A DNA stretch of 64,000 nucleotides, from NCBI RefSeq assembly GCF_932294415.1, contig NC_065535.1:24454782-24518781 (forward strand). The letters run 5' to 3'. Positions 6,640-62,931 of the stretch are shown one piece after another. The position numbers and the translations under genes were made by a program. Origin of the DNA: Quercus robur. Taxonomy: Eukaryota; Streptophyta; Magnoliopsida; Fagales; Fagaceae. Below the pieces are notes generated by a model that made no database searches, was not told the DNA's origin, and saw only the letters and a list, made by a program, of their open reading frames with translations. Every line of letters starts with the position of its first letter. The first letter of the stretch is position 1.

Positions 6640-7430
6640 CACAGATTTCAATAGTACTCAATTTGCCCTGATTGTGTTGGTAAGATAGTGGCTAGCTTAA
6701 ATGAAAGTAAAAAAAATTTGTCATTCTAAGAGTTGGGATTGGGTGGATTTTTTGGATTTAAGGTATATAAGCTTAGATAGAGATCTATGCACATGGTTAA
6801 TTTATAACTTTTAACTAAATTTGTGTTCATTGGATATCTGTGGTAAGAGTTTACCAATATCCATTAGAGATATTAAGTTTATTTTAGGAATAAAGTCAAA
6901 TGGGGTTGATGCCAACAACTTGGACTTAATGTTTTCATTTGTGAGTTGTTTTATGTTGTTTGTCTTGGGTACTTTATTGTGTCCCACAATAAAACCTTGT
7001 GTCAAACGATCTTTATTTTCAATTCTCCAAAATACTTAAGATATTAGAAACTTGAATTGCGTGAAACTTGTATTGAATTTCTTTCGTTCAAGGTGTGCAC
7101 GAATATAAAGACAAGAACCTTGTTGTGCTATTGGTTGTGTTTTGTTGTTAATGGTAAGTTGTGATAAATAGTTACATTCAAAAATATGATTTTGTTGATT
7201 AAATTTCTATAACTCTTTTAATTAAATTTCTATGAACATTTTATACATATTGTAGATGTTTTATTTCAAGCATGTTAACATTGAAATGAATGTTGATCAA
7301 ATGTCCAAACAACCTCAGTCATGTATTTGTTATTAGTGAGACCAAGAAGTTAAGTAAAGAATACAAAAGTTGCATTCGATTGGAAGTTTTGATTGTCTAG
7401 AGGTAATACTTGTATTTATAATATTAAACT
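6640..7430 (+). mobile_element. left arm of a foldback; fragment of a Ulp1/MULE-type TE ORF
   Basis: The open stretch 6821-7039 reads SLDICGKSLPISIRDIKFIL...LFVLGTLLCPTIKPCV. This resembles the uncharacterised conserved region found in plant Mutator-like elements that also carry Ulp1 peptidase domains; the family assignment is from memory of the motif. The first codon is arbitrary and stops lie just upstream, so this is a relic. The same sequence recurs inverted to the right: 6960-7430 matches 7455-7907, and 6640-6900 matches about 11915-11640 on the minus strand. Relative to the right arm this copy lacks roughly 100 bp (the GDIPIKVLEDKL-like segment). Confidence 0.6.
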
Positions 7431-7454
7431 ATTTATTAATAAGTTCAAAACATA

Positions 7455-7907
7455 TTTTAACTTATTAATATATAGTCAAATATTATAAGTACAAGTATTA
7501 CCTTTGGACTATCAAAACTTCCAATCAAATATAACTTCTTGGTCTTGCCAATAACAAATAAATGGCTGAGGTCGTTTGGATATGCATTCAACATTCATTT
7601 CAACATTAATATGCTCAAAATAAAACAACTGTAATATGTTCATAGAAATTTAATCAATAAAATCATATTCTTGAATTTAATTATTTATAACAAATTACCA
7701 TTAAGAACAACACTCAACCATTAATGCCAACATGGTTTTTGTCTTTATATATGTACATACCTTGAACAAGAAAATCCAATACAAGCTTCTCGCAATTCAA
7801 GATATTAACTTTTTAAATATTTTGGAGAATTGAAATAAAAGATCGTTTGACATAAGGTTTTGTTGTGGAACATAATCAAATACTCAAGACAATCAACAAA
7901 ATACAAT
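7455..7907 (-). mobile_element. right arm of the foldback, inner part
   Basis: Inverted copy of 6960-7430 separated by only about 25 bp. Shared landmarks include the words around GATCGTTTGACA, TTGGAGAATTGAA and CTTCCAATC. On the minus strand the end near the LTR element encodes LCSTTKPYVKRSFISILQNI, the diverged partner of the left arm's LCPTIKPCVKRSLFSILQNT. The arm is interrupted at 7907/7908 by the LTR-derived element and resumes at 11549. Confidence 0.75.
7903..7907. repeat. target-site duplication, left copy (ACAAT)
   Basis: The five bases immediately left of the element's TGTTGA terminus are ACAAT. The right flank (11549-11553) is ACAAC, a 4/5 match, as expected for an aged 5-bp LTR-retrotransposon target duplication. 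Confidence 0.6.
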
Positions 7908-9636
7908 TGTTGATACCTTGGAAATAGGCATCTTAATTTTGGCCATTAGATCCTTAATCTCATTTCATCAAAATGATATTGATGTTGTAACGACCAAATC
8001 GACTGGTCATAAACCCTAATTGGACCATCAGATTGAAAGTTATCATTAAATCAAGTTTTAATGTCCTAAATGTACTATCACAAATTGAGTCCAACTATAT
8101 GTGATTATGAACAATTAATTTCAATTGGTTATAATTATAATCAATTTGAGATTAATGACGTGTGATAATTTGATTGGTTAGGTCTACATCTTATGATAAT
8201 GTTGCACACACTTAATTAATTAAATAGTCAAACATTAATTATTTAATAAGTAATTTATGTAATTATATTTTAATTAGGATAAATTTGGAACTAATTAAGT
8301 CTGAAATGGAAGTGATTAGAGTCTATTAATGTTAATTGAAAACTAATTTGAGACCTATTAATGTTAATTATACCAAAATTATATTCTAACAAATGACTTT
8401 TGCTCACCATTTTGTTGATATTTCTAAGAATATTTTGAATCTGTGAGTGAGGCTAATTATTCCAGAAACTAGACATATGGGGCTTCAATTTGAGCACAAG
8501 AACGAGACAATTCGTATCAGAATTAAGTATGATATAAATTTTTGAATTTGGCTCTGCGAGCTGTTACAATAGCTACGTGAAAAACTGAATTTTGCTTGCT
8601 CATCACTCCTACCAATCTTTACATTTAATGCATCAGCTTTCCCCGAAATTTGAAATAGGGTCTAGGTTTATGATTCCTTTTGATCATTTTTCAACCCTTA
8701 TTAAATGACCTTCTATTCATTTTTTTTTTTTCCACTACAACTATATAAATCTCCCATCTTCTTCATTTCAAAGTACACAAAAACACTTTCTCTTCTCCTC
8801 TCTTGAGTTCTAGTGAAGTAGAGTAATCTTGTCATATCTTGGTCTTCTTGAGACTCAAGGTATTGAGCGAGACTCACTCTCCCTCACTTAGTTCTTATTT
8901 TCTACTCCACCCTTAGGACCTTTACCAAGAGTCTCTTCCTCCATCGTGTGGATCTTGCATGTAGATATAATCCATTTCCCTAACTCTTTTTTTTATATTA
9001 CTATGATGAGATTAAGATTAGAGCATGCTAATGTTTATTTAAATTCCTTGAATATGTTTGAATGTTTTTAAATGTTCACATGTTCTTAATTGTTCATCAC
9101 ATGTTCATACATAATACTAGTTTTGATCTTAAATTCACATCAAAAATATGGAAAACATGTTTGTTTCATAATTCTCTCAAATCCTCGAATCTAAGATATT
9201 ATCATTCACACACATTCACTATAATTTATTTTTTAATCCAAATGTAAGTATTAATAAATTGAATTAGGATTTATCACATGCATACACGTTAAATTCAATA
9301 TGCAAATTGATTGATAATATATTGGATTATATGATATGAATATTGGTCATCATAATCTAGAAAACCGGTTTTATCGGGTAAGGTGATGCCTAACACCTTT
9401 TCACCTTGTAACATAGTCTTCGAGCTTAGATCGAGGGTTGATAGACCAACGCTTATCCATGTAATTTTCAATTTCTAGATTGAAACTAGGTAACAAAGTT
9501 ATGTACTTTATCTTAAATTGTATCTAAAACCAAAGTCATGTAATTTCTTATAATCAATGTAAATTCATTTGCAAATCAATAAAATGAGGAATTTTTCAAT
9601 TTTGATTTTTCTTATATATACCAATAATTAAATAAG
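7908..9636 (+). mobile_element. long terminal repeat, forward-facing arm of an inverted-LTR element
   Basis: It starts TGTTGATACC, close to the plant Ty3/gypsy LTR start TGTTGACACCCC. It contains a promoter-like CTATATAAAT at 8741-8750 followed by a CT-rich leader. Further on come the conserved block with AAAACCGG...GGTGATGCCTAACACC (9360-9400) and AATAAA at 9578. It ends at AATTAAATAAG, followed by the primer-binding-site-like TGGCAACTTTG. Compared with its inverted partner it has lost about 60 bp just inside the TGTTGA end. In the TATA-containing segment the two arms agree at roughly 85% by eye, so they are old. The LTR call is from termini and layout; no gag or pol is present. Confidence 0.65.
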
Positions 9637-9765
9637 TGGCAACTTTGTTTTGGTGTTGGGCCAAACTCACGTGAATGAGTGGAGTCTTGTTATTGCCTCT
9701 CGAAGTGAAGGTTCGACTGCTTATATTTTTCTCTTTAGATTATGCATTTTATAATGGAGTCGCCA
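9637..9765. other. 129-bp core between two inverted LTR-like arms, with a PBS-like site at each end
   Basis: The left edge reads TGGCAACTTTG on +. The right edge, on -, reads TGGCGACTCCATTAT, which matches the TGGCGACTC-type primer-binding sites of some plant Ty3/gypsy elements. Each PBS-like site points inward, so the core is the only internal DNA left for both LTRs. No coding potential is seen. Confidence 0.55.
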
Positions 9766-11548
9766 CTTATTTAATTATTAGAAAATAAAATAAGAAAACC
9801 ATAATTGAAAAATTCTTTATTTTATTGATTTGATAATAAATATACATTGATCATAGGAAATTACATGGTTTTAATCCTAGATACAATTTAAGATAAAGTA
9901 CATGGTCTTATTTTCTAGTAACAATCTAGAGATTGAAAATTACATAAATAAGCAGTTGATCTACTAACTCTTGATCTAAACTCAGATGTTATGTTACAAG
10001 ATGGGAAGGTGTTAAGCACCCACCTTGCCCGGCGAAACCGGTCTTCTAGACTATGGTGACTAATATTCATATCATATCATCCAAATCACTCAATTGCATG
10101 TTGAATTTTAATGTGTATGCATGTGATGAATCCTAATTCAATTTATTAATCATTACATTTGAATTGAAAAATAAATTCTAGTAAATGTGTGTGAATGATG
10201 GTATCCTAGATTCAACGATTTGAGATTTATGGAATAAACATGTTTGCCATATTTTTTATATGGATTTAAGATCGAAACTAGTGTTATGTATGAAAATGTG
10301 ATGAACAATCAAGAACATGTGAATAATGCATATAAACATTTAAGAACATTTAAACATATTCAAGGAATTTAAATAAACATTAGCATGCTCTAATCTTAAT
10401 TTCATTATAGTAATATAAAAAACAAGTTAGAGAAAGGGATTATATCTGCATGCAAAATCCACACGATGGAGGAGGAGACTCTTGGTGGAGGTCTTAAGGG
10501 TGGAGTAGAAAAGAAGAACAAAGAGAGGAAGAGCGAGTCTCACTCAATACCTTGAGTCTCAATAAGATCAAGATATTACAAGACTACTTTACTTCACTAG
10601 AACTCAAGAGATGAGAAGAGAGAGTGTTTCTGTGTGTTTTGGAATGGAAACGAGAGAGGATTTATATAGTTGTAGTGGAAAAAATATGAATGGAAGGTCA
10701 TTTAATGAGAATTGACAAATGATCAAAAGGAATCATGAACCTAGACCTTATTTGAGATTTCGGGGAAAGTTAGCGCATTGAATGAAGAGATTGGTGAGAG
10801 TGATAAGCAAGCAAAATTTGGTTTTTCCTGTAGTTATTGTAACAGCCAGCATAGCCAAATTCAAAAATTATATCTTACTCAATTTTGATCGGAATTATCT
10901 TGTACTTGTGCTTAAATTGAAGTCCCGAATGTCTAGTTTCTAGAAAAATTAACCTCATTCACATATTCAAAATATTCTAAGAGATATCAACGAAATGGTG
11001 AGCAGATGTCATTTGTTAGAAAATAATTTTAGCACAATTAACATTAATAGGTCTCCAAATTAGTTTCCAAGTAACATTAATAGGCTCCAATTACCTCCAT
11101 TTCAGATTTAATTGTTCCAAATTTACCATAATTAAAAAGATAATTGAACAAATTACTCATTGAATAATTAATATTTGACTATCTAATTAATTGTGTGCAA
11201 CTTTACCATAAGATTTAGTCCTAGCCAATCAAATTATGACATGTCATTAATCTCAAGTTGGTTATAATTATAATCAATTGAAATCAATTGTTTATGATCA
11301 CATATAGTCAAACTCAATTTGTGATAGTGCATCTCGACCATTAAAACTTGATTTGATGATAACTTTCAATTTGATGGTCTGATTAGGGCTTATGACCAGT
11401 TGATTTGATCGTAATCATATCAAGATCATTTTGATGAAATGAAATTAAGGATCTAATGACCATAATTAAAATTCTTATTTCCAATATAAAATTACTCTTT
11501 TACCTTCCATGTGAGGTTAAATACAGGTTGCAAAATGGGGTGTCAACA
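9766..11548 (-). mobile_element. long terminal repeat, reverse-facing arm of the inverted-LTR element
   Basis: On the minus strand it starts TGTTGACACCCCATTTTGC at 11548, carries CTATATAAAT (complement of 10661-10670) and the ACCGG...AAGGTGGGTGCTTAACACC block (near 10010-10045), and ends AATTAAATAAG next to the PBS-like TGGCGACTCC. It aligns along nearly its whole length with 7908-9636 in inverted orientation. This copy keeps the full canonical 5' end that the left arm has partly lost. Confidence 0.7.
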
Positions 11549-11915
11549 ACAACCCATAAATTCATCTCCCAATGTTTTTATCTCTTTCAATTTGTCCTCT
11601 AAGACTTTAATTGGTATATCCCCTCCCACATTGAGTCCATGTTAGCATGTATACTTTATATCTTTTGTGCTCACAACGGTAGATACTTCAACCCTGTTTG
11701 GCTTTATTCTCATAATGTACTCAAAATATCTAGTGGATATCGATAATCTCTTACCATAAATATCCAATGTACACATGTTTGGGTCAAAATTATCAATTAG
11801 CTATTTGCATAAATCTTTATCCAATATTATACACCTTAAATCCAAAAAACAACCAAACCTCAACCCTTGAATGACAATTTTTTTTACTTTCATTTAAATT
11901 GCTAACCAACATACA
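11549..11915 (-). mobile_element. right arm of the foldback, outer part (TE ORF relic)
   Basis: On the minus strand, around 11785-11549, it encodes CTLDIYGKRLSISTRYFEYI and, further on, GDIPIKVLEDKLKEIKTLGDEF, after which the LTR element interrupts it. This is the diverged inverted copy of 6640-6960. It retains the segment deleted there, so together the arms show what the parental element looked like. It contains several stops, so it is non-functional. Confidence 0.65.
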
Positions 11916-12481
11916 AACATAAAAATAAAATGCCGAATAATTGTTTATATAAAGATATTCCACAATAATTGTAACATAGAGAACAAATTGAGAGATATTG
12001 CCTCATTGATGTGCTTCATAATATCTCATGACAAGATAAATAAATTAATGTCAATTCCATGAGTGATGAGTTTAAGGTGGTGGAGTTGAGGCAAGGATTA
12101 GGTCTCTCTCTTGAGACGATACATATCGTCTACGGAATTTTCGGTGTAGTATACTAACAATTTTGTGTGCCACCCTTAGGATACAAAAGTCCAACCACCA
12201 AGCTGAATATCCTAACAAAGTCTACAACACTTTTAGGATGAGAAATTCTCAAACAATACTTTCTTGAACCCAGAATAAAATATATAAAAATAACATTATT
12301 TGTAAATTATATACTAGAAAATGTGAGGAAAATAACTCTAAAAAGTATATTGAGAATACTTGTTTTTAGAGAGAAGACTGAAGCTATTCATGCTCTTCTA
12401 TAGCCGGCAATACAAGCCTATATAAAGTAAAGAAATAATGCCAGTTAAAACCATCTTTAATAAGATAAAGGTTAGGTGTAA
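11916..12481. other. non-coding, no gene seen
   Basis: AT-rich. Weak similarity to sequence left of 6640 suggests the outer foldback arms may reach to about 12000. No other element boundaries were recognised. Confidence 0.4.
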
Positions 12482-13624
12482 TCTATATATATATATAAAA
12501 CCGAAGTCTTTGCTGGCACCATATTTTTCCACGTCAGCACAATATTTAAAAAATAAAAAATAAAAATAAAAACATTATAACACCTCAAAACCCTAGCAAC
12601 CTTACCCCTCTCTCAAGTTAAGAAATATAAAGCCACAGTTTCTGCAAACTCTCTCTCTCAAAACATAAATATCAAATTCAACCCCTTTAATTTCTCTTTA
12701 TATTTTTTAGGCTTCTATAGAGTTATAGTGAGTTATGCTGATTTTGTTTTTTTTGTGTGTGTATAGATGGTCATAATACTCCGGTATTCCAAGAAAAGTT
12801 CGTGTTTTCGTTAATTGAAGGCCTTAGAGAGATAAGTGTTGCAGTTTGGAACAGTAATACAAAAGACGATTTCATTGGCAGCGGAAAGTAATTACTTTGT
12901 CTCATATTTTTGTTTTTGAATTGATTTTGTGTGCTTTTTAGACCCTTTTGGATCAATTTTGTTAATTGGGTGTTTTTTTTTTTTTTTTTGATAGGGTCCA
13001 ATAGGGGAAGGTTCTTTCAAAGGGTTACGACGACCGCACTTGGTATCTGTATACTAATAGTGGGGGGTAAGTGCTATAAATTACTAACCATTTTAAGTGT
13101 ATAATCTGTTTCTAAAATTATCTATAATATTTTGTCCTTCGAAAATTTTATCTCTTTAATTTTAGTATATTGTGTTTCTTAAACTATAGATAGATTTTCT
13201 TTGTTTCTTATTTTCAATAATAAATCATTTTATTGCAATACCGGTAATTGTTTGAGAAATTCAATATGTTCATATCTCTATAGAATAGAGAATAGTTGAA
13301 GCCAATTTTATTACAACTACTTAAACTGAGTTGACTTAATTCCGTACAATTACAAAGTATAGCATGAAAGATAATGGAATTAATTGTTGTAATTTTTATT
13401 TTCTTTCCATGTTTTGAATTTCCATGTTTTTATTGTTGATGAGAAATTAAGGCTCAGTTGCACAATATGTGTAAATTCTTCAAAAGACTACTTTAAATAG
13501 TAAGTCAATGTGTCTCTTACATTTGGGTATTAGTTATAATTATTTTCAAATGATTGTACCAATAAAAGTGAATATGTATAAATTTTGTTTAACTATCCCG
13601 TGCATTGCACGGGTTAGCGACTAG
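12482..13624 (+). mobile_element. non-autonomous Helitron
   Basis: The 5' end is TCTATATA, with ACCGAAGTC 20 bp in. The 3' end has a perfect 7-bp hairpin CCCGTGC-ATT-GCACGGG (13597-13613), then TTAGCGA and the terminal CTAG (13621-13624). The hairpin sits 11 nt from the end, as in canonical Helitrons. The flanking bases are A (12481) and T (13625), the expected AT insertion site without duplication. At 1143 bp it has no Rep/helicase and so depends on another element for mobility. It carries two exons of a host C2-domain gene. Confidence 0.88.
12767..13066 (+). pseudogene. C2-domain gene fragment captured by the Helitron (two exons)
   Basis: Exon a (12767-12887) encodes GHNTPVFQEKFVFSLIEGL, then REISVAVWNSN and DDFIGSG. 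Exon b (12995-13066) encodes GKVLSKGYDDRTWYLYTNSG. Both keep their AG and GT borders, and the split Lys codon joins in frame (AA/G). The order matches the C-terminal half of small plant C2 (Ca2+/phospholipid-binding) proteins of the elicitor-responsive type. Just after the junction a TAG (13001-13003) replaces the Leu expected from relatives. With that stop, and no N-terminal calcium loop or C-terminal strands, it is a non-functional fragment. It lies in the same orientation as the Helitron. Confidence 0.75.
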
Positions 13625-14590
13625 TTTTTTTTAATTGCTATGACTCTTCAAATTTATTGTAAGAAAGAAGCTTAGAAGATTAGCAACATTCACTTCAACG
13701 TTTGAAAAAAAAAATTTGATAATCAGTTTGCATTGATTTGACCAACTCATAATTGGCAAGTTATGATATTATTACTAAATTTTAATTTAATAGCACGAAA
13801 CTGTTATGCCATCAATGAAAAAGATTTTTCTTTTCTTTCACTTAATTTATAATAATTTTTATAAAAACATTCCAACAATCCCCCACTAATTTTTATAAAA
13901 AATTAGTTCATAAAATTTTGGGTTAAGATAAAATAGTATGCATAATGAGGGTGTCAATAACTTGAACCCGTATTCAGCAATGTAGTTCCAAAGTCAATAT
14001 TGAGCAATATCTTGAACTATGACTTTTTATGTGGAAACAATATATTGCTATCACACACATAATATTCTAGTACTTTGCTACAAGCTTCTAGACCAGTATA
14101 TTACCGCCTTATACTTGATTCTAACTTTCATGAACATAGCAAAGATTTTGTAGCTGAATTGACACCTCTTCATGTACAAAGTACTTGGGAGTCTAGGGGG
14201 AAAAGGGTTCGAGCTGCTAAGCATGTTGTAATTAACTAATTATCTTTCAAAAAAAAAATTTCATGAACATTTTAGAGAATTAGCCCCATTATCATAGAAA
14301 ACAACCTTTTCAAGTGGGTAATCCCAAAAGACTAATAAATAAAAAAGGGAAACAAAACAATGGCAGTGAAATTAGGGTTTTATCATTCTTATCATTACTT
14401 TTAACAATATCAAAATGATTTTAATCCTTTCCCTGAGATTTTAATCCACTTGATGGCAAAGAGAACGCAAGAAAAAGTAATCTAGTTTTTCTTTTTAAGA
14501 AGAAGCAATCTAGAAAAAGTAGAGAACACGAAAGAAAAAGTTGAGAGGGGAACTATTTGTTTTTTTTTTTTTTTTTTTTTTTTGGGTTTA
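13625..14590. other. non-coding intergenic stretch
   Basis: No exon or element ends were recognised. Long A and T tracts occur at 13707-13716, 14251-14260 and 14560-14583. Confidence 0.5.
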
Positions 14591-15082
14591 TAACTTTATA
14601 TAAACTCACCTGCTTTACCAATAACTAGTATCCCACTAAAAATTAAATTAACAATTAGATCAAAACAATACTAAAATCCCATTAAAAAAAAAAAAACTAA
14701 ATTCCCATTAAAAAAAATACTAAAGTAATAATTAATAATTAAGATTTGCGTTGGTTTTTTTTTTTTTTTTTTAAAGTACCTAGAAGGTAGAATGACTGAA
14801 TGACCCTTTATAGAAAGCTAAAATTTCTCATTAATGAGAAACAGCTCTGTGTTTTTTGGCCTTTTCGTTTTCTTTTTCCCCAAATACACGACAAGAAAGC
14901 ACGGGCCTCCTCTCACCCCGATCCTTGTTTGACTGTGTATCACACTAGTTTCTACTTTCTACCCCAAACCAAAATCGATTTTTCTATATCTCACAGAGTT
15001 AAGAGTCAGAGGAGCTCGATATCCCTCTTGATAGTTCAATCAATCAAATTGGTTCGATTAGATTAGAGATTTAGCAGAAAAG
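14591..15082 (+). promoter_or_regulatory. likely upstream region and 5' leader of H2A.Z
   Basis: A TATATAAA motif lies at about 14597-14604, and a pyrimidine-rich leader with TCTCTTG-type words precedes the ATG at 15083. Whether this TATA box is used cannot be told from sequence; the leader would be about 450 nt. The 88-codon frame 14800-15066 lies in this region and has no recognisable content. Confidence 0.4.
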
Positions 15083-18000
15083 ATGTCAGGGAAAGGCGCA
15101 AAGGGTTTGATAATGGGCAAAACCCTAAGCAAGGACAAGGACAAAGACAAGAAAAAGCCCGTCACTCGTTCCTCTCGAGCTGGTCTTCAGGTACTCTGTT
15201 TCTTGCATTTCTTTGGTTTTGGGTTACTGGGTTTTCTTTGTTGTTTAATTTCACGTAATGGGTCATTCAATTTTGCACTATTTCGGAGCATGTGAAACCC
15301 CCACTGGACTGAACCGTGTCTATGTTTGATATGCGATTTTTGTGCTTACATGGTTATCTGGTGTTTGCTGATGGGTTTTGTTATGTGTTTTCAACCTGTC
15401 CAACTTTTACTTTACGGTGATCTTTAGTTTCGACTTTTATAAATAATTGGCATGTTTCAGAAATCAAGCTGATCTGATTGCTTAATACAGTCTAGAAATA
15501 GTGAGTTATTACTTTTGGAGATTTAGATTTTGAGTTATCACCTAATCGTATAAAAGAACTTGTTTTGATTTTGTATTGGGTTGCAGCCTGCTTGAATGTA
15601 CAACAGGGAACATAAATTGATTACTTACAAATTCTGTTAGGATTCCAATTTTTCCACTGTTTTATAAAAATTCTGTTAGTGTTTCGAAATTTCCATCCTC
15701 TAAATTGCCAATATTCTGACTTTTGGGGAGAAGATACCGGGCCCATTTGGTTATACGTTTTGGGAGCTTAATAGATCTTTTTTAAAACCAAAGACTGTTT
15801 TGCAACCACAACTTCTCATAACTTTTTTACAAACGCTCATCTTAAAAACACTGTTTTCCAACAGCTTATACAAACACACCCACCATAAAGTTTGTAACCT
15901 TTTGGGGTAAGACGCATCACATCCTCCGTGAGCCATCCATGTAGGAAAAATGGGATGGGACAAGGGCTTTTGAATTTGCGCACTGAACTTTTGTTAATCA
16001 ACTCTTCAACTTATATCTGCATGTCAACTCGTTGTTGAGGTGGCATTCTATAAACAGTCAGATTTAGCAAAGCTACCTTTGGTATTAAATCAATACCATG
16101 CTGAATGCTTCTCATTGCTGGCAAACAATGAGGTAATTCATAAGAGTTGTTGAATTTCTGGGGAATGATCATCAAACTCTAAAAGCTGTACTTCCTTCCC
16201 AACTTTGCAATGGCATATATAACTCCCATATCTTGACTCTTAGCTTCAAACTTTGTAGCAGTCTAGAAGCCATTAATCTTGATGTATTTAGAAGAACTGG
16301 TGACTTTTTCCCTAAGAGGATGCAGGATATAGTTTTCATTGCCCTTCGGAATGATTTAATTATTGGCTCTAGTGTGATTGATCATGTCATAGTCATATAA
16401 CAATGGTCTCCCTATAGAACGTGACAAGGATTTATGGGCACAATATTGCATGTACCCTCACTATCAACATTGTCACCAAGGAAAATTGACTAAGTAGCAA
16501 GACGTAACCAACACTTCATTACCATTTCAAAAGCAAAGCAATTTTGTAAGGATAAGGATGCTTTTGATATGCAATTTCAAATTTTCAGTCACCTCTTTGG
16601 AGATATGTTCTCACAGCTCCTCCTATTGAGAACAACATTGCACACCTATTACAATCACTAAGAACTCTTGCCTGGAAAATATCATGATGCCTCCAATCTT
16701 CTTCCTCCACTTTCAGTGTTGTCATTATATCACTCCCAGCACCACCAAGGACTCTCCTACTGGATAAATATCAAAATCCTCTTCCTCATTATCATAAGTT
16801 GGCTCCAGTAGCATCTCGTCTTCCCCTTCAAGTTCTACAAGGTTCACCCGTCATTGTGGAAATTCTTAGGTGTGCCCCTTTTCTCCACTAGCAAAACATC
16901 ACACGTGATCCATAACCAACCTTGGAAGAAGCTGGACCAGAATTGCTTTGTGCTCCATATCTTACTATATCTTTCCCTTTTTCACTTCTATCAACATTGC
17001 TAGTATTTCTCCTCATTGCTTGATGCATTATGGTAGTGTCTAGACCAACATTTTGAGTTGTTTGGTCAGTATGAACTATGAACACCCCGAACAACTAATG
17101 AACCCCTTTGTATTGCACAACCAACTCTTCCTGACAAAGTTCTCCTTGCACCATAACACAACACCTGCTTTTCTGTCATTAAGGTACATTGTCAAATGTC
17201 AAGTGTCTTCAAAATTAATCAACCCCATTTCATTGCTAATAGGTTGGTTTACGCCTGCAATATAGATCTCATTTGCTTGTTAGTCTCATCGACGCTAGCT
17301 CGAATAGAAAGGTTGTTGAACTCCAAAGTGCATTCCTCCACAAACATCCCTCTTTGTTTTAATGAATGGAATTTTTCATACAATTTCACTGCATAATTAG
17401 CTAGGAAAAATTGCTTCTGTAGCTTCAATTTCATGTGCTCCCACACTTGATTTTTGGCTTGCCTTGTCGAGCATGTTTCTCTTTAACTCTCTTCTACCAT
17501 TGAAGCTCTATCTTGATTCCCTCACCAACCAATCCTCCAATCTGCCTTCTGTCACACGTTCTATAGGTCTGACTTCATGAAAGGGTTTTTTTTTTTTTTT
17601 TTTTCATCCTCCTCATCCTCTATCAAGAGCCTTGTAGCCCAACCAGCACCTCCCGACATTTCCAATGGAAACATCCAAGGTTCAAACCCCCCCCCCCCCC
17701 CCATATTTTAACTATCAAATTATATAAATAATAATAATCATCATCCACATTTTGGTGTCCTAGGGTTTGCATTCACCTTTCAGCATCTCTGTACGGGCTC
17801 CTGCTGGTTCCTGTCACTAAAGAACTTGTACAACTCATGAAAATTCTTCAATCATACGCCTCATCTCAACCATATCTGTCTATTGGCCTTGATTTCCTCT
17901 ACCCCAGAACTTGTACCACGACCAACCATAGCTTAACATTGCAACCTTTGACTTAGATCTAAATTTTGTGGCTTAGATCTAGGATCTTTTTCCCTGATAT

Positions 18001-25819: not shown

Positions 25820-27352
25820 TCAGATGGTCGAGATCTTAGGAACATTCACTGGGAACTGATGAATCTCATCCATCCATGGGTTCTCCTTTGCTGGATTCAC
25901 AGTCTTTAGAGACTTCCAAACTGCACTGTTACATTTGAACCCGGATCCAAACGCTATCTGCCATATTCTGTCTCCCTTCTTCACTCTCCCCTTGGCTTCT
26001 GTATAAGCCAATTCATACCAAAGAGAGCTACTTGAGGTGTTGCCAAAACGGTTGAGTGTCATCCTTGAAGGTTCCATATGCCAATCCGAAAGCTGCAAGT
26101 TCTTCTCCAATTCATCCAGCACAGCTCTTCCTCCGGCATGAATGCAGAAATGCTCAAAAGCCAGTTTGAAATCTGGGATGTATGGCTTCACTTTCATCTT
26201 GAAAATTTTCTTTCCAACCAACGTAGCAAAGAAGAGCAATTGTTCAGACATAGGCAACACAAGAGGACCCAATGTTGTTATATTAGTCTTTAAAGCATCC
26301 CCAGCAACTGCCATTAGATCCTTAGACAAAGAAACTCCAATCCTCCCAGTGGAATCCTCTTGTTGAGTAACACAAGAGAAGCACTTATCATCAGCTCCTT
26401 TGTGGGTACGAACTGTATGAACTAATCGATACTTGGATCGACATTGTTCAGACCTCTTGTTTGTAAGCAAAATTGCAGCCCCTCCCATTCGAAACAAACA
26501 ATTCGAAACAAGCATCGATCTATCATTCCCAAAATACCAATTCAAAGTGATATTCTCCATGCTAATCACCAAAGCATACGAATTGGGATGAACTTGAAGA
26601 AGATCTTTAGCAAGATCAATTGAGATCAAACCAGCACTACAACCCATTCCACCCAGATTATAACTAATGATATTCCCTCGAAGCTTGTAATGGTTAATGA
26701 TCATGGCAGAGAGCGATGGTGTTGGATTAAACAAGCTACAATTCACGATCAAAATCCCAATGTCTTTCGGTTTCAAACGTGTTTTCTCAAAAAGCTGATC
26801 AAGGGCACCAAACATTACCATCTCAGCTTCTTTCCTTGCCTCTGCCATTGATGGGTTTGGAGGAATTCTCAAAACCGCTTCAGGAAGATAAGTTGACTCT
26901 CCAAGACCTGACCTCTCCATAATTTTCCGTTGGAACTCGAGGTTTTCCTCAGTGAATGTCCCTGTCAAACAGGACCGATTCATGAACACCTGCCTTGTGC
27001 ATTTCCGGGCATCCTCTGGCTTATAGCACGAGAAATCAACAAGGTAGATTGGGCGGGGACGAGTAAGAACATAAAGGGTTGATAGAAAGACAAGGAGAGT
27101 TGAGCAAAGTATCACAGATATGAGATTGAACTGGAGTTGGTTCCATAGGTCATAGACATCTTGAAGTGAGAATGTAGAGAGTTGCGCTGCTATTAGAACA
27201 ACCAAAGGCGACAAAAACAGGTACATTCCATGGGTGATGAGGTAATGGTAGCCAAGTTTCACATATTTCAGCTTCACAGATTGTTTGAAATCAGGGAGGT
27301 TTCGCGAGGACAGCTGTGGAATCAAGGGAATGTTTGGATTGGATTCAGACAT
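25820..27352 (-). CDS. 3-ketoacyl-CoA synthase (KCS11-like)
   Basis: Condensing enzyme of the ER fatty-acid elongase; it joins malonyl-CoA to a long-chain acyl-CoA for waxes, suberin and sphingolipids. The 510-aa single exon matches KCS length. Residues about 43-61 and 75-96 are two hydrophobic membrane segments; then comes the FAE1/CUT1-type condensing domain. The catalytic triad is visible: Cys238 in [10 protein letters not shown], His405 in [11 protein letters not shown], Asn438 in RFGNTSSSS. The C-terminal [17 protein letters not shown] is the usual ACP_syn_III_C end. The [21 protein letters not shown]-terminus places it with KCS11 and relatives. The frame is open 52 codons further upstream, but [13 protein letters not shown] at 27352 is chosen because homology starts there. 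The substrate chain length cannot be read from sequence. Confidence 0.95.
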
Positions 27353-27419
27353 TTTTGGTAAGAAGTTGATTACACTAATTGGAATGGTGCGGATCAGAAT
27401 TGACAAAATAAAACAATTC

Positions 27420-27950
27420 CTGTGATGATCCAAATGAGAAAGTGAAAAAGAGCATGAACCCTTTTCCCTTTCCCTTAAAGCAAAAATTCTATGAATTTTT
27501 GAGGTCACAGGAAGTGCATTTGCTCAACAAATCGAAATGTATGACCTGGGTAATTAGTAAAATAAGTTTTTGGTTGTTGGGCTGAGAATAAACAAATTTA
27601 GGTGTACTGGAACTGTATTTTCTCGGATTTTCAGAACCTGACAAGGAAAGGGTACCTTAGAAAGGGCTTATAAATGGATCAAAATGAAAACTTTCATAAC
27701 ATAGAATTAGAAAATGCAGCTCAAAGAACCTAAAACATTCCTGCCAAAAACAAAAAAAGAACGAAAAAAATTACAGAAGGACAAACTTTTAAATACATTT
27801 ACTATAAGTTTTTTAATGTAAAGTACTTATCAAAAAATAAAGTTTCTTAATGTAAAGTGCGAAAAACAAATGAATATTTAAATGAAATAATGCAGAAGAG
27901 AGATTCTTCAAGACATGCAAGAGACCCAGTAGAGAATGAAAAAGCCTTAC
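27420..27950 (-). other. probable 5' UTR intron of the KCS gene
   Basis: On the minus strand a donor AATTTAAG/GTAAGG lies at 27951/27950 and a good acceptor TTGGATCATCACAG/GAATTG ends at 27420. Splicing would remove 531 bp and leave a short leader before the ATG at 27352. It would also remove most of the in-frame upstream extension. Inferred from splice-site quality only; the extension itself has no conserved residues. Confidence 0.4.
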
Positions 27951-33267: not shown

Positions 33268-33276
33268 CAGTAACTA

Positions 33277-34030
33277 GGGAATTCTAGCCTTTTGCCCTTA
33301 ATTTTTTAAAAATTTAGCAATATGCTCCTATTTCGAAACTATATAGGGATATGCCCCTGTTTCGATACTCAATTACCTTAAAATCGAATTTCAATGAAAT
33401 ACTCGATTCGTAGAAAATCGAGTTATGCCCAATAAAATTATTAAAAAAAAAAAAAATGCATGGAACTCGATTTTAGGGAAGTCGAGTTCCAAAACACTGC
33501 TATAAGGCTTCAAAACGTCACTATAGGGCTTAAAAACGCCACTATAGGGCTCCCTGAACCTAGTATGGGGCGATAACACATAAAATAAATTTTGCAGGAA
33601 AACGCCACTATAGGGATTTAAAACGTCACTATAGGGATTAAAAACGCCACTATAAGGCTCCCTGAATATGGGGGCAATCGCACTTATAAAAAAATTTTCA
33701 TGAAATCGGCGCTATAGGGATTTAAAACGTCATTATAGGGTTTAAAAACGCCACTATAGGACTCCCTGAATATGGGGCGATCACACTTGTAAAATTTTTT
33801 TTTGCATGGAACTTGATTTCCTGAAAGTCAAGTTTAATGCAATTTTTTTTTTTTTTTTTTTTTTTTTAAGTTTGATCAGGCATAACTCGATTTTCTACGA
33901 ATCAAGTATTTAATTGAACTCGATTTTAGGGTAATCGAGTATCGAGACAGGGGCACGCCCCTATATAGTTTGCAAACAGGAGCACATTACCAATTTTTTT
34001 TAAAATTAAGGGTAAATTGCCAGAATCTCC
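33277..34030. mobile_element. 754-bp MULE-like foldback element with perfect 9-bp target duplication
   Basis: Flanked by CAGTAACTA at 33268-33276 and again at 34031-34039, an exact 9-bp direct repeat. The ends are inverted: GGGAATTCTAGCC on the left, GGAGATTCTGGC read inverted from the right. The similarity continues inward through GCCCTTAATTTT, CTATATAGGG, CAATTACC and a TACGAATC / ACTCGATTTTCTACGA block, giving arms of about 150 bp. Between the arms lies an array of short repeats (next entry). No transposase is present. Confidence 0.8.
33495..33810. repeat. higher-order tandem repeat with ACGCCACTATAGGG core
   Basis: About nine subunits of roughly 20 bp carry (A)AACG(C/T)CACTATAGGG(C/A)TT. 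They are grouped in three ~110-bp blocks, each closing with CTCCCTGAA(T/C)...GGGGC(G/A)AT(C/A)(G/A)CAC. The subunits alternate CGTCACTATAGGG and CGCCACTATAGGG in the same order in each block. Confidence 0.85.
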
Positions 34031-34039
34031 CAGTAACTA

Positions 34040-56640: not shown

Positions 56641-57430
56641 AAGTCAGAGGACGTCAGACACAAAATCGATATTGAGTCCACGTGAGACAGCTCCGGGCAA
56701 ACCAAATTTTCCTCGTGCGGTCTTACCGGCTATTCCTGTATCTCTCTCTCTCTCTCTCTCTCTTTCTACGTAGTTTTAGTTAGAGTTTCGACAATTGGAC
56801 TTTTCGGATTTGGTAGATTAATAAAAAAAAGAAAAAAGAAAATTCTATTAAGGGAAGGTAACTTACACCTATTTTTTCGGTTTTGTAATTATTTTGGAAA
56901 AATGAATATCCGTTTGCATTTGAGACACTGTTTCTCTCACCTATAAATAACAGCTGTGGAACACATGCTCATTTTTTCTCCTCTTCTTCCTCGCTCTTTT
57001 ATTCTTTTTTATTTTTTATTTTTTCCTCCTCCTCCTCCGACCACCACAGAGTGCCGGCGAATTCGCCGGCGATAAAACGACACCGTCTATCCTCCTCCTC
57101 ATCCTTCCTATTTCAGCTTCGCTCTTCTCTCTCTCCCTCCCTCTCCTTATTTGGATCTTTTGTCTCTTTTCAGATCTGGTTGTTCAGGTACAGATTGCTC
57201 AATTTACTTGCAAATTATATTTCATTTTGTTTTTCACTCTTTATCATCTAATTGCTTTGTTGTTGATCTTGATCTGCCATTGTAGATTTTGAAAATTGAT
57301 CCTATTTTTTTTTTTTCTAATTTTTGCAATAGATTAGGTAATTAAATTTCTGTAATAATGTGGTTTTTGTTTGAAACTGTGTGTGTGATTTGTTGCAGAG
57401 TTCGATTTTGAGAGAGAGAGAGAGAGAGAT
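56641..57430 (+). promoter_or_regulatory. promoter and 5' leader of the alkaline/neutral invertase gene
   Basis: Candidate elements in order: GACGTC (56650-56655), a G-box CACGTG (56679-56684), a (CT)n tract (56740-56763) and a TATA box TATAAATA (56942-56949). Transcription would start about 30 bp later. A leader intron is likely, with donor TTCAG/GTACAG at 57187/57188 and acceptor TTGCAG at 57398. A GA repeat directly precedes the ATG. The G-box and ACGT core suggest bZIP/bHLH binding; this is inference from motif only. Confidence 0.6.
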
Positions 57431-60325
57431 ATGGATGGGAGCAAAGAGATGGGAGTAGGTGTGGGACTTAGAAACGTGAGCTCGCATTGCTCCATCTCGG
57501 AAATGGACGACTACGATCTCTCTCGTCTTCTCGATAAGCCGAGGCTCAACATCGAGAGGCAGAGGTCGTTCGACGAGAGATCGTTGAGTGAGTTGTCGAT
57601 CGGTCTAGCCAGAGGAGGATTAGATAACTTTGAGAGCACGTGCTCCCCCGGAGGAAGGTCCGGGTTTGATACCCCGGCTTCTTCGGCTCGTAACTCATTC
57701 GAGCCTCATCCAATGGTTGCTGACGCTTGGGAGGCTCTTCGCCGCTCTTTGGTGCATTTTCGGGGTCAGCCGGTTGGGACTATTGCTGCTGTTGACCATG
57801 CCTCTGAGGAAGTTCTAAACTACGATCAGGTATATATACTCTTTTTGATATTTTATGAGCTCACTGTGTAATCTACTATGATCCAATTCATGTACCACAC
57901 CCATTAGAGATTGCTAGAATAATAGTATCTTTTAAATGCTTAAAATTGAAAACTTTGATTCAATTCAAGAGGAAAACGAACCCATTTGAAACTAAAAAGA
58001 ACGGACCCATTTAAACTTGTTATATGTTTTTAACATGATGACAAGCTATGTGAACCTGGGGTATTACTTTTTATGAACTTAGTATACAACAATAACAACA
58101 GCAACAACCGGGTCTTACTCCCAAATTTTTGGAGTTGCTATGGATCCTCAACAGATTAGTATGGGTACACTACATATTTTCTATTCAAAGTCATTCTCTT
58201 TCACTGCATCTGGGGTCTGATACAGTGCCTCGCTAGTAAGGGACACCCCAACTGGTATCTGTAGTGGATCCATTCTCATTCACTGCATGTGGGGTCTTTT
58301 TTTTTGGGCCTTGGAACCGGTTATAAACAAAATATATGACACTAAGCACAGACACTGTATGTGAACTTCGTTTATGTTTTATAAATCTAATTTGATGTGT
58401 GTTTCGCTTTAGGTTTTTGTACGAGATTTTGTTCCTAGTGCTTTGGCTTTCCTGATGAATGGTGAGCCTGACATAGTCAAGAATTTTCTCTTGAAGACTT
58501 TGTACCTTCAAGGGTGGGAAAAAAGAATAGACAGATTTAAACTTGGGGAAGGTGCAATGCCAGCCAGCTTCAAAGTTCTTCATGACCCTATTCGAAAAAC
58601 AGATACACTTATTGCAGATTTTGGTGAGAGTGCCATTGGGAGAGTTGCTCCCGTTGACTCTGGATTTTGGTGGATAATTCTGCTGAGAGCTTATACAAAG
58701 TCCACAGGGGATTTAACTCTTGCAGAAACATCAGATTGTCAAAAGGGGATGAAGCTTATTTTAACTTTATGTCTGTCGGAGGGGTTTGATACATTCCCAA
58801 CTCTGCTTTGTGCAGATGGATGCTCTATGATTGATCGAAGAATGGTAGGCTGCCTCTAAAATGATTTTACTCATATATACTTTTTTAGTTTTATAAATAA
58901 TTTTTGTCAAAGATGCTTGGATAATGCTTAGCTGCTCCTTTACCAATCTGTTTGGTTCTTATTATGAAATATATAAAGTTTCTACGGGAAAGCAAGGTCA
59001 CCTCATTAAGTGGTCTTGGTTGATGTTGACCGGCCAATTTTAGTTTCAAAAGAAGAGCAATTGAACCAATGAAGAATTAGCTTGCTCAGTGCAATGTTAT
59101 CTTTTAGCCATGTTGTTCTTTGGTGTGGAAGTCAGGTCTAAGTTTAATGGCTTCCTGGAATAATTTCTTTTCTTATGACTAAATAAATCCTTGTTTTCAT
59201 AGGTATATGTTGTTAGTGACAATGAACATTATTTTCACTTAATATTTATTTACTTGGATTGGTTTTAGCAGTGTTTGAGCGTATTGCAACAGAGACTTTT
59301 TGAGTTCTAGAATGATCTATTAAGCATTAAAAGATATTTGCATACCTGTAAAAAAATAAGAATAAAACTCAATGATGTTTGCATTGTTACAATGCTTCAT
59401 TCTAAGTGTAGCAACAGGATTATTATTTATTTGTAAAAGCCTCGAGACGGAGAGGAAATTCTTAATCATAACGATATGTGAAAATTTTTATTGTTTTGTA
59501 ATGCTCACTGCCTTGTAAGGATGGATAACCCAGTTTCTCTTGTTTCCTGTGCACTTCCCTCTTTTTGATGTGCTTTAGTAGGATATGGAAAGGATTTACA
59601 TGAAGATGCAGATGTTTATTTATTTGTTTTCTTTAGTCTGTTGAGGATGTTTCCAATTTAGTATCCCCAAATAGAATGAATGCAAATGTTCTTATTTGAT
59701 CTTTGCATAGTCCTTTTCATGTTCTTTATGGGTCAACCCCTCATCTAAATTTCCTTTTATAACTGCTCAATGAGGATGCTGACTTTTCATTCCATATTCC
59801 TTGTAAATGTAAGTCACACAACTGTTCTCAATTCTCTCTTTCCAGCATTATTCTCTACAATATATTACTTTGTCTCTTATTTTTTTTGTTTTGGTTGAAA
59901 ATTTTCTCTAGTGCTTGGTGTTGACTCCAAGCAATCCTAGGTGGTGACTCCTAGGTTCTATCTTTCCTTTTTCATTGCTTGGTGCAAACTCCAAGTGACC
60001 TAGACGTGACTCCTACGTTCTATAATTTTTGTTGTTTTTTCGTGTTAAAAAAATTTCCCAATAGACATTCCCCTTGAGAATTCTTCTATCTTTTATCAAT
60101 TTTAATATCAAAGCCCTCTGTTCTGCATCAATTCTTTTCTTTCAAATAAGTGCATTTGGCAACTCAAACTTACATTATTGAAAGAGGGAGTACATGGGAG
60201 TCATTCTCTAAGCCAATTCAAGAAGATCAAACAAAAATGGGATGAAATTGTTAGTGATGCCCCCTCTGTTTGATTCCTTGCTCAACTTTCTCATTCCTTG
60301 GCCCTGCTTATTCGGATATTTGTTG

Positions 60326-60362
<37 letters not shown>

Positions 60363-62323
60363 TTTTTTTTATATTATTTTAAAACTACACTATCAGCTGT
60401 TAAATCTCATTTTATTACTTTTTTTTTTTCAAATTTTAAATTTTAAATTTTTTAAAGTTGAAAAATCATTTCAATGCCTTTTCCTCTACTTGATGAAAAG
60501 CTACTACTAAGCCAAGGCCTAGGGGTGTTGAATACTGCATAGATTTTGATGATTTAGCAGGTTTTGCATAGTTTGATGCTTTGGCTAAAACAATTGCATT
60601 GTAGTGAACATCAAGTAGTTTATAGCTACAATTAGATTCGAAGCAAGTTTGTGGGGAGTAAAATTAGCAGTTGTCAAATTTTTGAGAGTATGGTTTTATT
60701 CAGAAACTCTTCTTGATTGACTTCACTGCATTTCCTTAGTTACTCTTCTAATTAAAGAAGTATTATTTTAATTTTTTCACTTATTATCTCCATTTTTTTT
60801 TTGTATAAAAGGAATTCATCCATAGCCTGGTTCTTGTGCCAGGCATGCTTATGTTATCATAGTGGATTGTTGTTGTATGTGTAAGCAAGCTGGGGAGTCT
60901 ATGATCACTTATTGTTAAATTGTTCTATGGATAGAGATCCATAGTCTTTCATTTTATGCCTCTTTGGGGTGCAGTGGGTTATGCCAAAGAGGGTGTAGAT
61001 TTGTTGGCATTTTGGAAGGGGCAGTTTTCTAGGCAGAAAAATGGTGATATTTGGAATGCAATCCCTCTGTGTCATGTGGATTATTTGGAAGGAACAAAAT
61101 AACTGGACATTTGAAGTCCTTGAATGATTAATGTTGGCTGTGAAGTTGATTTTTCTACATACTTTGTATGATTGGATGGCTCCCACAAGTGGTCATTCTG
61201 TCTCTAGTTTGCCCTTTGGTTTTAAATACTTGATGTTAACCTGTTATGTTTAATTATAGTATTCGTTTTTGAATTGACATGCTTTACCTTTGGCAGACTT
61301 CTCGTTCTATTAGTTTGCAAATTGTGTTGTTTGTTAATTAGTCCTTGAAATATACTCTTTAGTCCTTTTGTCTTGAAATTCGAACAGGCCATTGATCCTG
61401 AAATTTACTTTCTTTTAGGTCATTGATATGGGAAAAGGAAAAATGCAAGACACTTCTGTATAATACTTTCAGCTACTGCACTTGTCATATATTGTTGGCA
61501 TGTAACTTTACTCTTTTTTGCTTCTTTCCTCTGTTTTTAATATTATGCTTGTATCTCTTATATAGCCTATGGAACTTATATGGAATTGTATTTTTTGTTT
61601 CTGTTATAACTGATCTGTTTCCCAAAATCATAACATAATGTTCCCCTGGTCTTCTTCACCTTTTTTCTTTTTCTTGAGGAATTTGTCAGGAGTTCAGTTA
61701 TTCTTTTACACTTTTGAAGAAGTCTTTCCTCATTTACATTTTTATTGCGTGAATTCTTTTCCAGGGCGTATATGGTTATCCAATTGAAATTCAGGCACTT
61801 TTCTTTATGGCGTTGAGATGTGCTTTGGCAATGCTTAAACCTGATACAGAAGGAAAAGAATTTATAGAGCGAATTGTGAAGCGTTTGCATGCATTGAGTT
61901 ATCACATGCGAAGTTACTTTTGGCTTGACTTCCAACAGCTAAATGACATTTACCGCTACAAGACTGAGGAGTACTCACATACTGCAGTAAATAAGTTTAA
62001 TGTTATTCCTGATTCGATCCCAGAATGGGTATTTGATTTTATGCCAACACGTGGTGGTTACTTTATTGGAAACGTTAGTCCTGCAAGAATGGATTTTCGA
62101 TGGTTTGCATTAGGCAATTGTGTTGCGATTATGTCATCTCTTGCAACACCTGAGCAATCAATGGCTATTATGGATCTTCTTGAATCTCGCTGGGAAGAGT
62201 TGGTTGGAGAGATGCCTCTGAAAATAAGTTATCCTGCTATAGAAAGTCATGAGTGGAGAATTGTAACTGGTTGTGATCCCAAGAATACCAGATGGAGTTA
62301 CCATAATGGAGGATCTTGGCCAG
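57431..62323 (+). CDS. alkaline/neutral invertase, GH100 (partial; exons 57431-57829, 58413-58844, 61765-62323)
   Basis: Cytosolic-type invertase hydrolysing sucrose to glucose and fructose at neutral pH. Exon 1 (133 aa) holds [34 protein letters not shown] and [11 protein letters not shown], then GQPVGT. Exon 2 (144 aa) has [31 protein letters not shown] and [12 protein letters not shown], where Asp215 is the likely general acid of GH100. Exon 3 (186 aa) runs from [18 protein letters not shown] to [19 protein letters not shown]. All junctions are GT-AG and phase-consistent; exon 3 ends after the first base of the next Val codon. The 463 residues seen lack the C-terminal ~90 aa (the VLLW... 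exon), which was not found before 64000. No transit peptide is seen, so it belongs to the cytosolic (CINV1-like) group. Introns 1 and 2 are 583 and 2920 bp. Confidence 0.95.
59913..60036. repeat. ~65-bp tandem duplication in invertase intron 2
   Basis: TGCTTGGTG(T/C)(T/A)(G/A)ACTCCAAG, a GTGACTCCTA block and GTTCTAT occur twice head to tail. Confidence 0.75.
60840..61215 (+). mobile_element. LINE 3' fragment (zinc-binding RT tail) in invertase intron 2
   Basis: In shifting frames the + strand encodes [19 protein letters not shown], then [13 protein letters not shown], and later [12 protein letters not shown]. These are blocks of the zf-RVT region at the C-terminal end of plant LINE reverse transcriptase proteins. 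Frameshifts and stops make it inactive. It has the same orientation as the gene. Confidence 0.7.
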
Positions 62324-62931
62324 GTTTGCCTCTTTTCTTGTTATCCAAGTTTTCTACGTTAATGCTTTTAAGTTATGCCAACTGAAGTCCAATATGAATT
62401 TTAGTGAGGACCTTTTTGCCGAGGTGGTAGGAATAAACTCACCATTTTGGCACTCAATAGTCAATATGCATATGTTAGGGTCAAGTGAAGGTCTGGATAG
62501 CACAGGATTTTTATAGGATGACAATGTTGTTCCCATCTAGAAGGATGCTTTTCTATCTTGCATCTATGTGCTTGAAGAGCTATCCTGAAAGCAATCTCTC
62601 TCAGTCCTTCCCATCACTCTTCTCTGCACACAAACCATAGAAGGATGCAATCCAAATAGAAAATCATGATTCAGGCATAAAAGCAGATGCTTGGGTTCCA
62701 AGAGACGAGGATAAAATTTAATTTTAGTCGTTGGTTTATTAAGTATTAGGGTAGAAAGGTTCTTTTATCATTAATTCTAGGATAAAATTTATTTTACATC
62801 TTCCTTGATGTCACTCAGTCCTGATTAAACCATGTGTGTTTTAAGTATATTTATGTTTGATAAGTTGTGTGATTTTGAATATTTCAATCACATCTCATGC
62901 TTCAAGGTCGGAGTCACACCCTTTTCATCAA
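62324..62931 (+). other. invertase intron 3, first part
   Basis: Sequence after the GTTTGC donor. The short frames 62316-62516 and 62354-62536 are read-through into the intron. No next exon seen. Confidence 0.6.

Follow-up and report, generated by a model that had tools for sequence, protein, structure and literature searches.

Facing long terminal repeats in Quercus robur as the probable product of one integration through two U3 ends

The facing repeats and their insertion site

In a 64-kb stretch of the Quercus robur genome (C2:24454782-24518781; the window, with positions counted from its first nucleotide) two long terminal repeats (LTRs) face each other tail to tail and occupy positions 7908-11548 as one inverted unit, which interrupts one of two copies of a gene-like segment. 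We suggest, with a probability of roughly three in four, that two LTR DNA ends of one family were integrated together at this site, that two U3 (unique 3') ends were used and that a 5-bp target duplication was left. The observations on which this suggestion is based are a single insertion, outer U3 ends, a target duplication, a junction absent from the other places scored, and two more, independent units whose duplications are exact, in the same genome, which was searched as a 785.7-Mb assembly of 42 contigs.

The left LTR (7908-9644, plus strand) has U3 outermost and has lost ~139 nt from its 3' end as well as 54 nt close to its start, and the right LTR (9645-11548, minus strand), also with U3 outermost, lacks ~35 nt at its 3' end. 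When 7908-9644 is aligned with the reverse complement of 9758-11548, 1484 of 1717 ungapped columns match (86.4%; Kimura two-parameter distance (K2P) 0.153) with 16 gap openings, and blastn gives 84.4% over 1747 columns (E = 0). Among the gap openings is the 54-nt deletion just inside the outer end of the left arm, and because of this loss the plain arm alignment starts late. An earlier reading of this DNA, made from its letters alone (the sequence-only reading), had judged by eye that inward-facing arms are ~15% diverged, and the alignment bears this out. An assembly fold-back, considered as an artefactual source of the inversion, would give near-identical arms in contrast to the ~14% divergence seen.

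The 64 kb contain TGTTGANACC at 7908(+) and 11548(-) and nowhere else, and TGTTGA is outermost at both of these edges of the unit, so that both outer ends are LTR 5' (U3) ends. The unit does not have the one U3 and one U5 (unique 5') outer end of a normal LTR retrotransposon or solo LTR. Within the unit TATATAAA occurs at 8742(+) in the left LTR (8742-8749, 834 nt from the LTR start) and at 10668(-) in the right LTR (10661-10668), and TGGCRACT sites lie at 9637(+) and 9765(-). The first of these sites is a look-alike of a primer-binding site (PBS) in the left LTR (TGGCAACT, 9637-9644, plus strand), where similarity to the right arm ends; the second is the look-alike in the right LTR (TGGCGACTCC, 9756-9765, minus strand), the sole place in the window with at least 8 leading bases of the complement of plant PBS primer 2395. 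At the joint (~9640-9653) a 3'-truncated plus-strand LTR meets a 3'-truncated minus-strand LTR, and between 7040 and 12770, unit included, there is no stop-to-stop frame of at least 65 aa.

The gene-like segment, G, is present twice in the window, tail to tail and on opposite strands, as G1 and G2. G1 (6672-7450, plus strand) is the uninterrupted target paralog with the empty site at 6949/6950, and carries deletions of its own, ~40 and ~70 nt, just ahead of that site; G2 (minus strand) is split in two: read in the direction of G, 11549-11925 comes before the insertion site and 7453-7907 after it. With 7908-11548 and one 5-nt copy taken out, G2 aligns straight through the site with G1 (598/716, K2P 0.189). 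The G family has 13 candidates in the genome, all of which were scored; the two G parts are 127-132 apart in coordinates in 11 other arms versus 3782 in G2, and the insertion is absent from 9/9 aligned paralogous arms (seven loci and both arms of locus L100). The sequence-only reading had proposed a search for an empty site; carried out inside the window and on paralogs from the same genome, this search confirmed the limits of the insertion and its entry as one unit.

The flanks of the unit are ACAAT on the left (7903-7907) and ACAAC on the right (11549-11553), whereas the nine uninterrupted arms have one GTTGT or variant each, with GTTAT in four and a 2-nt loss in L107. When removal of 0-12 nt was tried, exactly 5 nt was best for G1 and for 6/7 paralogs (L107 is best at 6), and we therefore take ACAAT/ACAAC as a true target duplication, as had been proposed. 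At 5 bp with one mismatch it lies within the 4-6 bp expected at an empty site for integrase-type insertion, and we read the difference between the copies as one later mutation. Random 5-mer pairs in the window (n = 20000) agree fully in 0.3% of cases and with at most one mismatch in 2.7%. As a yardstick we used ordinary copies of the family at 11 loci, with both ends readable in 10: their flanks have 0-1 mismatch in 5/10 (L022, L026, L059, L062 and L074), 2 mismatches in two and 4-5 in three. L060, with a PBS-like stretch after it, and L063, with a purine-rich stretch before it, are not solo LTRs, and both have 4-5 flank mismatches. At the level of sequence comparison the data confirm that the unit is one insertion into one arm (G2) of an older inverted repeat.

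Inverted homology also extends beyond the LTRs (6672-6909 with 11688-11922, 78%), as would be the case if a host segment with an LTR had undergone inverted segmental duplication and its flanks had been mirrored too. We regard this origin as barely credible, given that the outside homology belongs to the older G repeat, that G1 is uninterrupted across the site and that a G palindrome free of LTRs is present on C40. A version in which LTR and flank were mirrored together and 6946-7906 formed a separate fold-back was rejected, as 6946-7450 just continues the flank and the G1 frame crosses the site.

The palindrome on C40 (L100, C40:17956800-17958450) spans positions 8-1646 of that locus with 80.8% identity, and the other G members are single arms. 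The G inverted repeat may be a fold-back element carrying part of a gene. Pfam gave no match for the two G frames over the site, nor for two pieces with X at stops; G may resemble plant mobile-domain or C48-like proteins. Outside G, 2407-2739 and 14306-14675 are also inverted relative to each other (81.5% of 319 ungapped columns); they may belong to the old inverted duplication as its outer part, or they may be copies of some other repeat.

The family of the arms and other inverted units

First-look searches of the genome gave 1020 and 1400 candidates for the two LTRs. All seven loci fetched for paired matches (L066-L072) have a direct LTR pair at the ends of a longer element, with LTR starts 6.4-7.8 kb apart, and the six pairs that were self-aligned are 1.88-1.93 kb in length with K2P 0.027-0.059. 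The LTR 3' end is CTCTCACA or a variant, and after the 5' copy come the nucleotide G and TGGCGACTCCACTGGGGA or a close variant; in the six pairs printed the PBS after the 5' LTR is TGGCGACTCCACTGGGGA in L066 and L072 and a variant with at most two changes or one base lost in L068-L071. A purine-rich stretch such as GAGGGGCATTC precedes the 3' LTRs of these relatives and is on neither flank of the window unit. The family PBS is one base off the complement of plant PBS primer 2395, for which the tRNA may be tRNA-Arg. The sequence of this primer is given in PMC9245474. The family is probably that of a Tat/Ogre-like LTR retrotransposon.

The relatives also change the picture of what lies between the arms. 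The sequence-only reading had placed a 129-bp core there, bounded by PBS-like TGGCRAC sites. The core sequence (9645-9757 in the window) comes after both LTRs in 6/7 full-length elements, and at the 3' LTR only in L067, and it is therefore LTR sequence, namely the 3' part of the right-hand LTR; the joint has no core of its own. Likewise, the TGGCRAC sites are look-alikes within the LTR, as the true PBS of the relatives is ~150 nt further on. The look-alike ahead of the true PBS (e.g. window 9765(-) and L065 position 2313) has the form GTGGCGACTCC in 38/76 aligned copies, and may mark a former LTR edge that has since shifted, or serve as an alternative place for priming. With the core proved to be LTR sequence, its interpretation as tRNA read-through or filler was dropped, and ARAGORN, applied to the core as a candidate tRNA read-through, found no tRNA. 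Rfam gave only two snoRNA (small nucleolar RNA) matches in 7900-11560, both far under gathering scores. Public genome contigs (8 stretches) and viral contigs (10) gave pattern matches by chance, with a longest alignment to the unit of 22 nt, and one further pattern scan of viral contigs gave zero matches.

To extend the observation beyond the window, 76 fetched loci, some of them overlapping, were screened for facing LTR ends less than 400 bp apart. Such ends were found in five, of which four overlapping loci are the window itself and the fifth is L065 (C2:66802800-66807700). The L065 arms are 97.2% identical (1852/1905), its flanks are an exact 5-bp duplication (ACATG/ACATG), and at its joint an LTR that is complete to its end and followed by GTGGCG meets an inverted LTR without its last 11 nt, with GCG common to both. 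L097 (C41), from a related family, also has an exact 5-bp duplication (GTATG/GTATG); its arms are 89.2% identical (1948/2183, K2P 0.117), and at its joint LTR, PBS and 30 nt of leader (49 nt past the LTR) meet an intact inverted LTR end.

Facing look-alike motifs were also scanned for by pattern at spacings of 180-360 nt. At 240-300 nt the strict pattern gave 1 place (L065) and the relaxed pattern 3 places with one facing pair (L065); at 180-240 nt the relaxed pattern gave 4 places with two facing pairs (L096 and L097), and at 300-360 nt there were zero places. The four remaining pattern places were judged by reading their letters only. The relaxed pattern covers the variant in at least 56/76 aligned copies, and truncated units such as that in the window escape it. 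In L096 (C2:59848700-59853500) two LTRs from a third related family face each other, of which one is truncated past the look-alike and the other is intact to its end; as its outer ends are uncertain, this locus was kept outside the count, as a candidate for a fourth unit.

The search for other inverted copies that the sequence-only reading had proposed was thus successful in that L065 and L097 were found, and negative in that no second copy with the same junction and core was present among the best 40 of 1204 candidates. For L065, too, no other place spanning its junction was found among the best 40 of 1608 candidates. These results bear on the earlier idea of a new class of palindromic LTR-derived elements that propagate themselves. 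At least three units in one genome, with L096 as a fourth candidate, would be in line with such a family; however, no two of the three units with target duplications have the same junction, those of the window and L065 recur nowhere among the best 40 candidates for each, and the window unit has no open frame of the length given above. We consider a self-propagating palindromic family highly improbable, and the units look like recurrent one-off products instead.

Origin of the unit

During the retrotransposon cycle, plus-strand synthesis from the polypurine tract starts the outer U3 ends, in the textbook case one U3 and one U5 end are joined to the chromosome, and LTR integrases usually leave a 5-bp duplication. 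In the plant elements surveyed in PMC6317226, this duplication has 5 bp in 93.4%. We suggest that in the window the integrase would have taken two U3 ends instead of the normal U3 and U5, giving the 5-bp target duplication, and that the inner (U5/PBS) ends would have been connected tail to tail close to the 3' ends of the LTRs. This connection could have preceded integration, with an inverted LTR dimer arising through end joining or through fold-back reverse transcription, or could have followed it immediately, through repair of two separately bound LTR molecules; we make no firm choice between the two. Such a unit has no normal route to replicate again. Both the action of the integrase and the route of joining are what we infer, and with U3 at both outer ends and a real 5-bp target duplication, the aberrant integration product listed among the options of the sequence-only reading is the best reading of the unit.

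Ordinary elements could also be brought to face each other, either by a normal insertion that was later rearranged or by two nested insertions followed by a deletion, and there are ordinary LTRs that face each other. L095 is an example: behind an LTR with PBS and leader stands a facing LTR end, and since another LTR match in the same orientation as this end lies ~8.2 kb off, the end seems to belong to a full minus-strand element as its 3' LTR. In the three units, in contrast, both outer U3 ends directly abut copies of a single 5-bp target. To obtain this from ordinary elements, either a second element would have had to enter the very same 5 bp or an inversion would have had to break precisely at the edge of the LTR, at each locus anew, and we hold such an origin to be very unlikely.

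In each of the three units the joint is close to the LTR 3' end (~-139/-35 in the window, +6/-11 in L065 and +49/0 in L097). Strong-stop DNA and linear complementary DNA (cDNA) end around the LTR 3' end, and the joints at -139 to +49 nt match this region. One route to such joints is that plus-strand strong-stop DNA (U3-R-U5 and a few tRNA nucleotides) snaps back by ~3 nt and primes itself, that the LTR is recopied and that the palindrome then integrates. This route predicts L065 letter by letter, i.e. the LTR end and GTGGCG, pairing of GCG with the CGC of the U5 end, and synthesis that continues at the base that follows, and the left arm of the window ends within the PBS look-alike. However, microhomology joining gives the identical L065 sequence, the 30 nt of leader past the PBS in L097 exceed strong-stop DNA, and the window's left arm is shorter than its right arm, so that the right one must be the template, at an old joint that is not exactly readable. 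We view self-priming as rather doubtful.

Alternatively, one integrase complex may have inserted two separate U3-ended LTR molecules whose inner ends were closed by microhomology end joining. The joints are asymmetric and differ between the window, L065 and L097, GCG is common to both sides at L065, the two arms in the window are at least as distant from one another as from other old copies, and the private changes in the L065 arms are unequal, all of which speak for two molecules. In other elements, end joining of LTR cDNA, including a PBS-guided alternative end-joining route, is described in PMC12786077. Conversely, the L065 arms pair as sisters (support 97/87) with two shared states seen in 0/25 other rows, as from one source, and two short LTR-only molecules have to be assumed. 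Insertion of two molecules is a real possibility for these units, if short of an even chance.

The relationships between the arms also limit what can be said about age. The window arms are K2P 0.154 apart, compared with 0.146-0.157 to the nearest other old copies, and because the arms are equally far from other old copies, what their divergence shows is how old the subfamily is; for the date of insertion it gives no more than an indirect hint. The inference of age that the sequence-only reading drew from it is weak. G1 and G2 had already split (K2P 0.189) when the insertion occurred; mismatch rates in the LTR arms and G arms do not differ significantly (p = 0.066). The arms were also considered as proof of one source molecule, and for the window neither the tree nor shared private states decide.

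Several observations weigh against integration of two U3 ends as proposed here. The window arms are not resolved as sisters in the tree (sisterhood is not rejected; approximately unbiased test, p-AU 0.208) and have 3 private shared states, compared with up to 4 and a mean of 1.5 in other pairs of old copies (36 pairs). The L065 arms have unequal numbers of private changes, 14 versus 30 (p = 0.023), a difference that argues against arms which began identical and changed at the same pace. The target duplication in the window carries a mismatch, alone among the three units, the left LTR of L097 starts with C where T is expected, and the number of inverted units with a target duplication, at least three, is a lower bound.

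Comparison with known systems places the unit apart from each of them. Fold-back DNA transposons have long inverted arms and a target duplication, and the window unit is alike in both; its arms, in contrast, recur as direct pairs 6.4-7.8 kb apart with the PBS at the 5' copy. Set against the features of DIRS elements, the unit has inverted LTRs and lacks open reading frames (ORFs) for reverse transcriptase and tyrosine recombinase (7040-12770), and we know of no target duplication made by DIRS elements. DIRS-1, as described in PMC5633606, shares inverted LTRs with sense and antisense promoters that face inward, and differs in its three ORFs, tyrosine recombinase and circle stage from the window unit, which codes for no frame of 65 aa or more and has a 5-bp duplication. 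Plant non-chromovirus elements (OTA; Tat/Ogre-like, as classified in PMC6317226) have LTRs in direct pairs, a primer-2395-like PBS and a 5-bp duplication in common with the family of the arms; in the window unit, whose lineage is assigned by inference, the LTRs are inverted with U3 at both edges, the internal region is absent and the joint is tail to tail. Solo LTRs and aberrant cDNA forms, in the accessible parts of PMC12786077 and PMC9694575, include LTR-only insertions with target duplications, and end joining and autointegration are known; those texts describe 2-LTR circles, whereas the window has a chromosomal inverted pair with U3 outermost, and the word 'inverted' is absent from their available text. 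Among the open-licence papers listed, judged by titles and the beginnings of abstracts, none describes inverted LTR pairs with target duplications; one of them is on DIRS-1.

Surrounding features and hairpin potential

Elsewhere in the window are two host genes, a FAE1/3-ketoacyl-CoA synthase-like (fatty-acid elongase-type) frame at 25823-27523 (minus strand) and alkaline/neutral invertase exons at 57389-62382 (plus strand). A compact inverted repeat at 33269-34038 has arms 78.5% identical over 233 columns, with related repeats nested within it, and a fragment at 17249-17479 (minus strand) matches Retrotrans_gag (E = 5.9e-06).

Both LTRs of the unit keep a TATA box and read inward, and two facing promoters could give a long hairpin RNA. 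For a model transcript with assumed ends (8772-10640), the predicted folding energy is -1091.8 kcal/mol compared with a mean of -383.6 (standard deviation 11.5) for 10 dinucleotide shuffles, and 710/827 predicted pairs link the two arms. Five exact runs of at least 21 nt are shared between the arms, the longest of 49 nt. The CpG ratio is 0.469 and 0.405 in the arms and 0.473 in the whole window; because the arms are depleted like the whole window, they give no sign of extra methylation. A role of the unit in silencing is a possibility raised by its sequence.

By combining the three loci, we put forward tentatively, and as a doubtful proposition at this stage, that the integrases of related families repeatedly insert inverted LTR dimers through two U3 ends, and in that way keep creating inverted-repeat loci from which small RNAs directed at the parent family could arise. 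That one genome has three units bounded by U3 at either side and by 5-bp duplications suggests that insertion through two U3 ends is workable in a living plant. Such units can be counted, as fossils of reverse transcription that failed or of cDNA end joining. If expressed, each would be a ready-made hairpin against its own family and a possible start of retrotransposon silencing.

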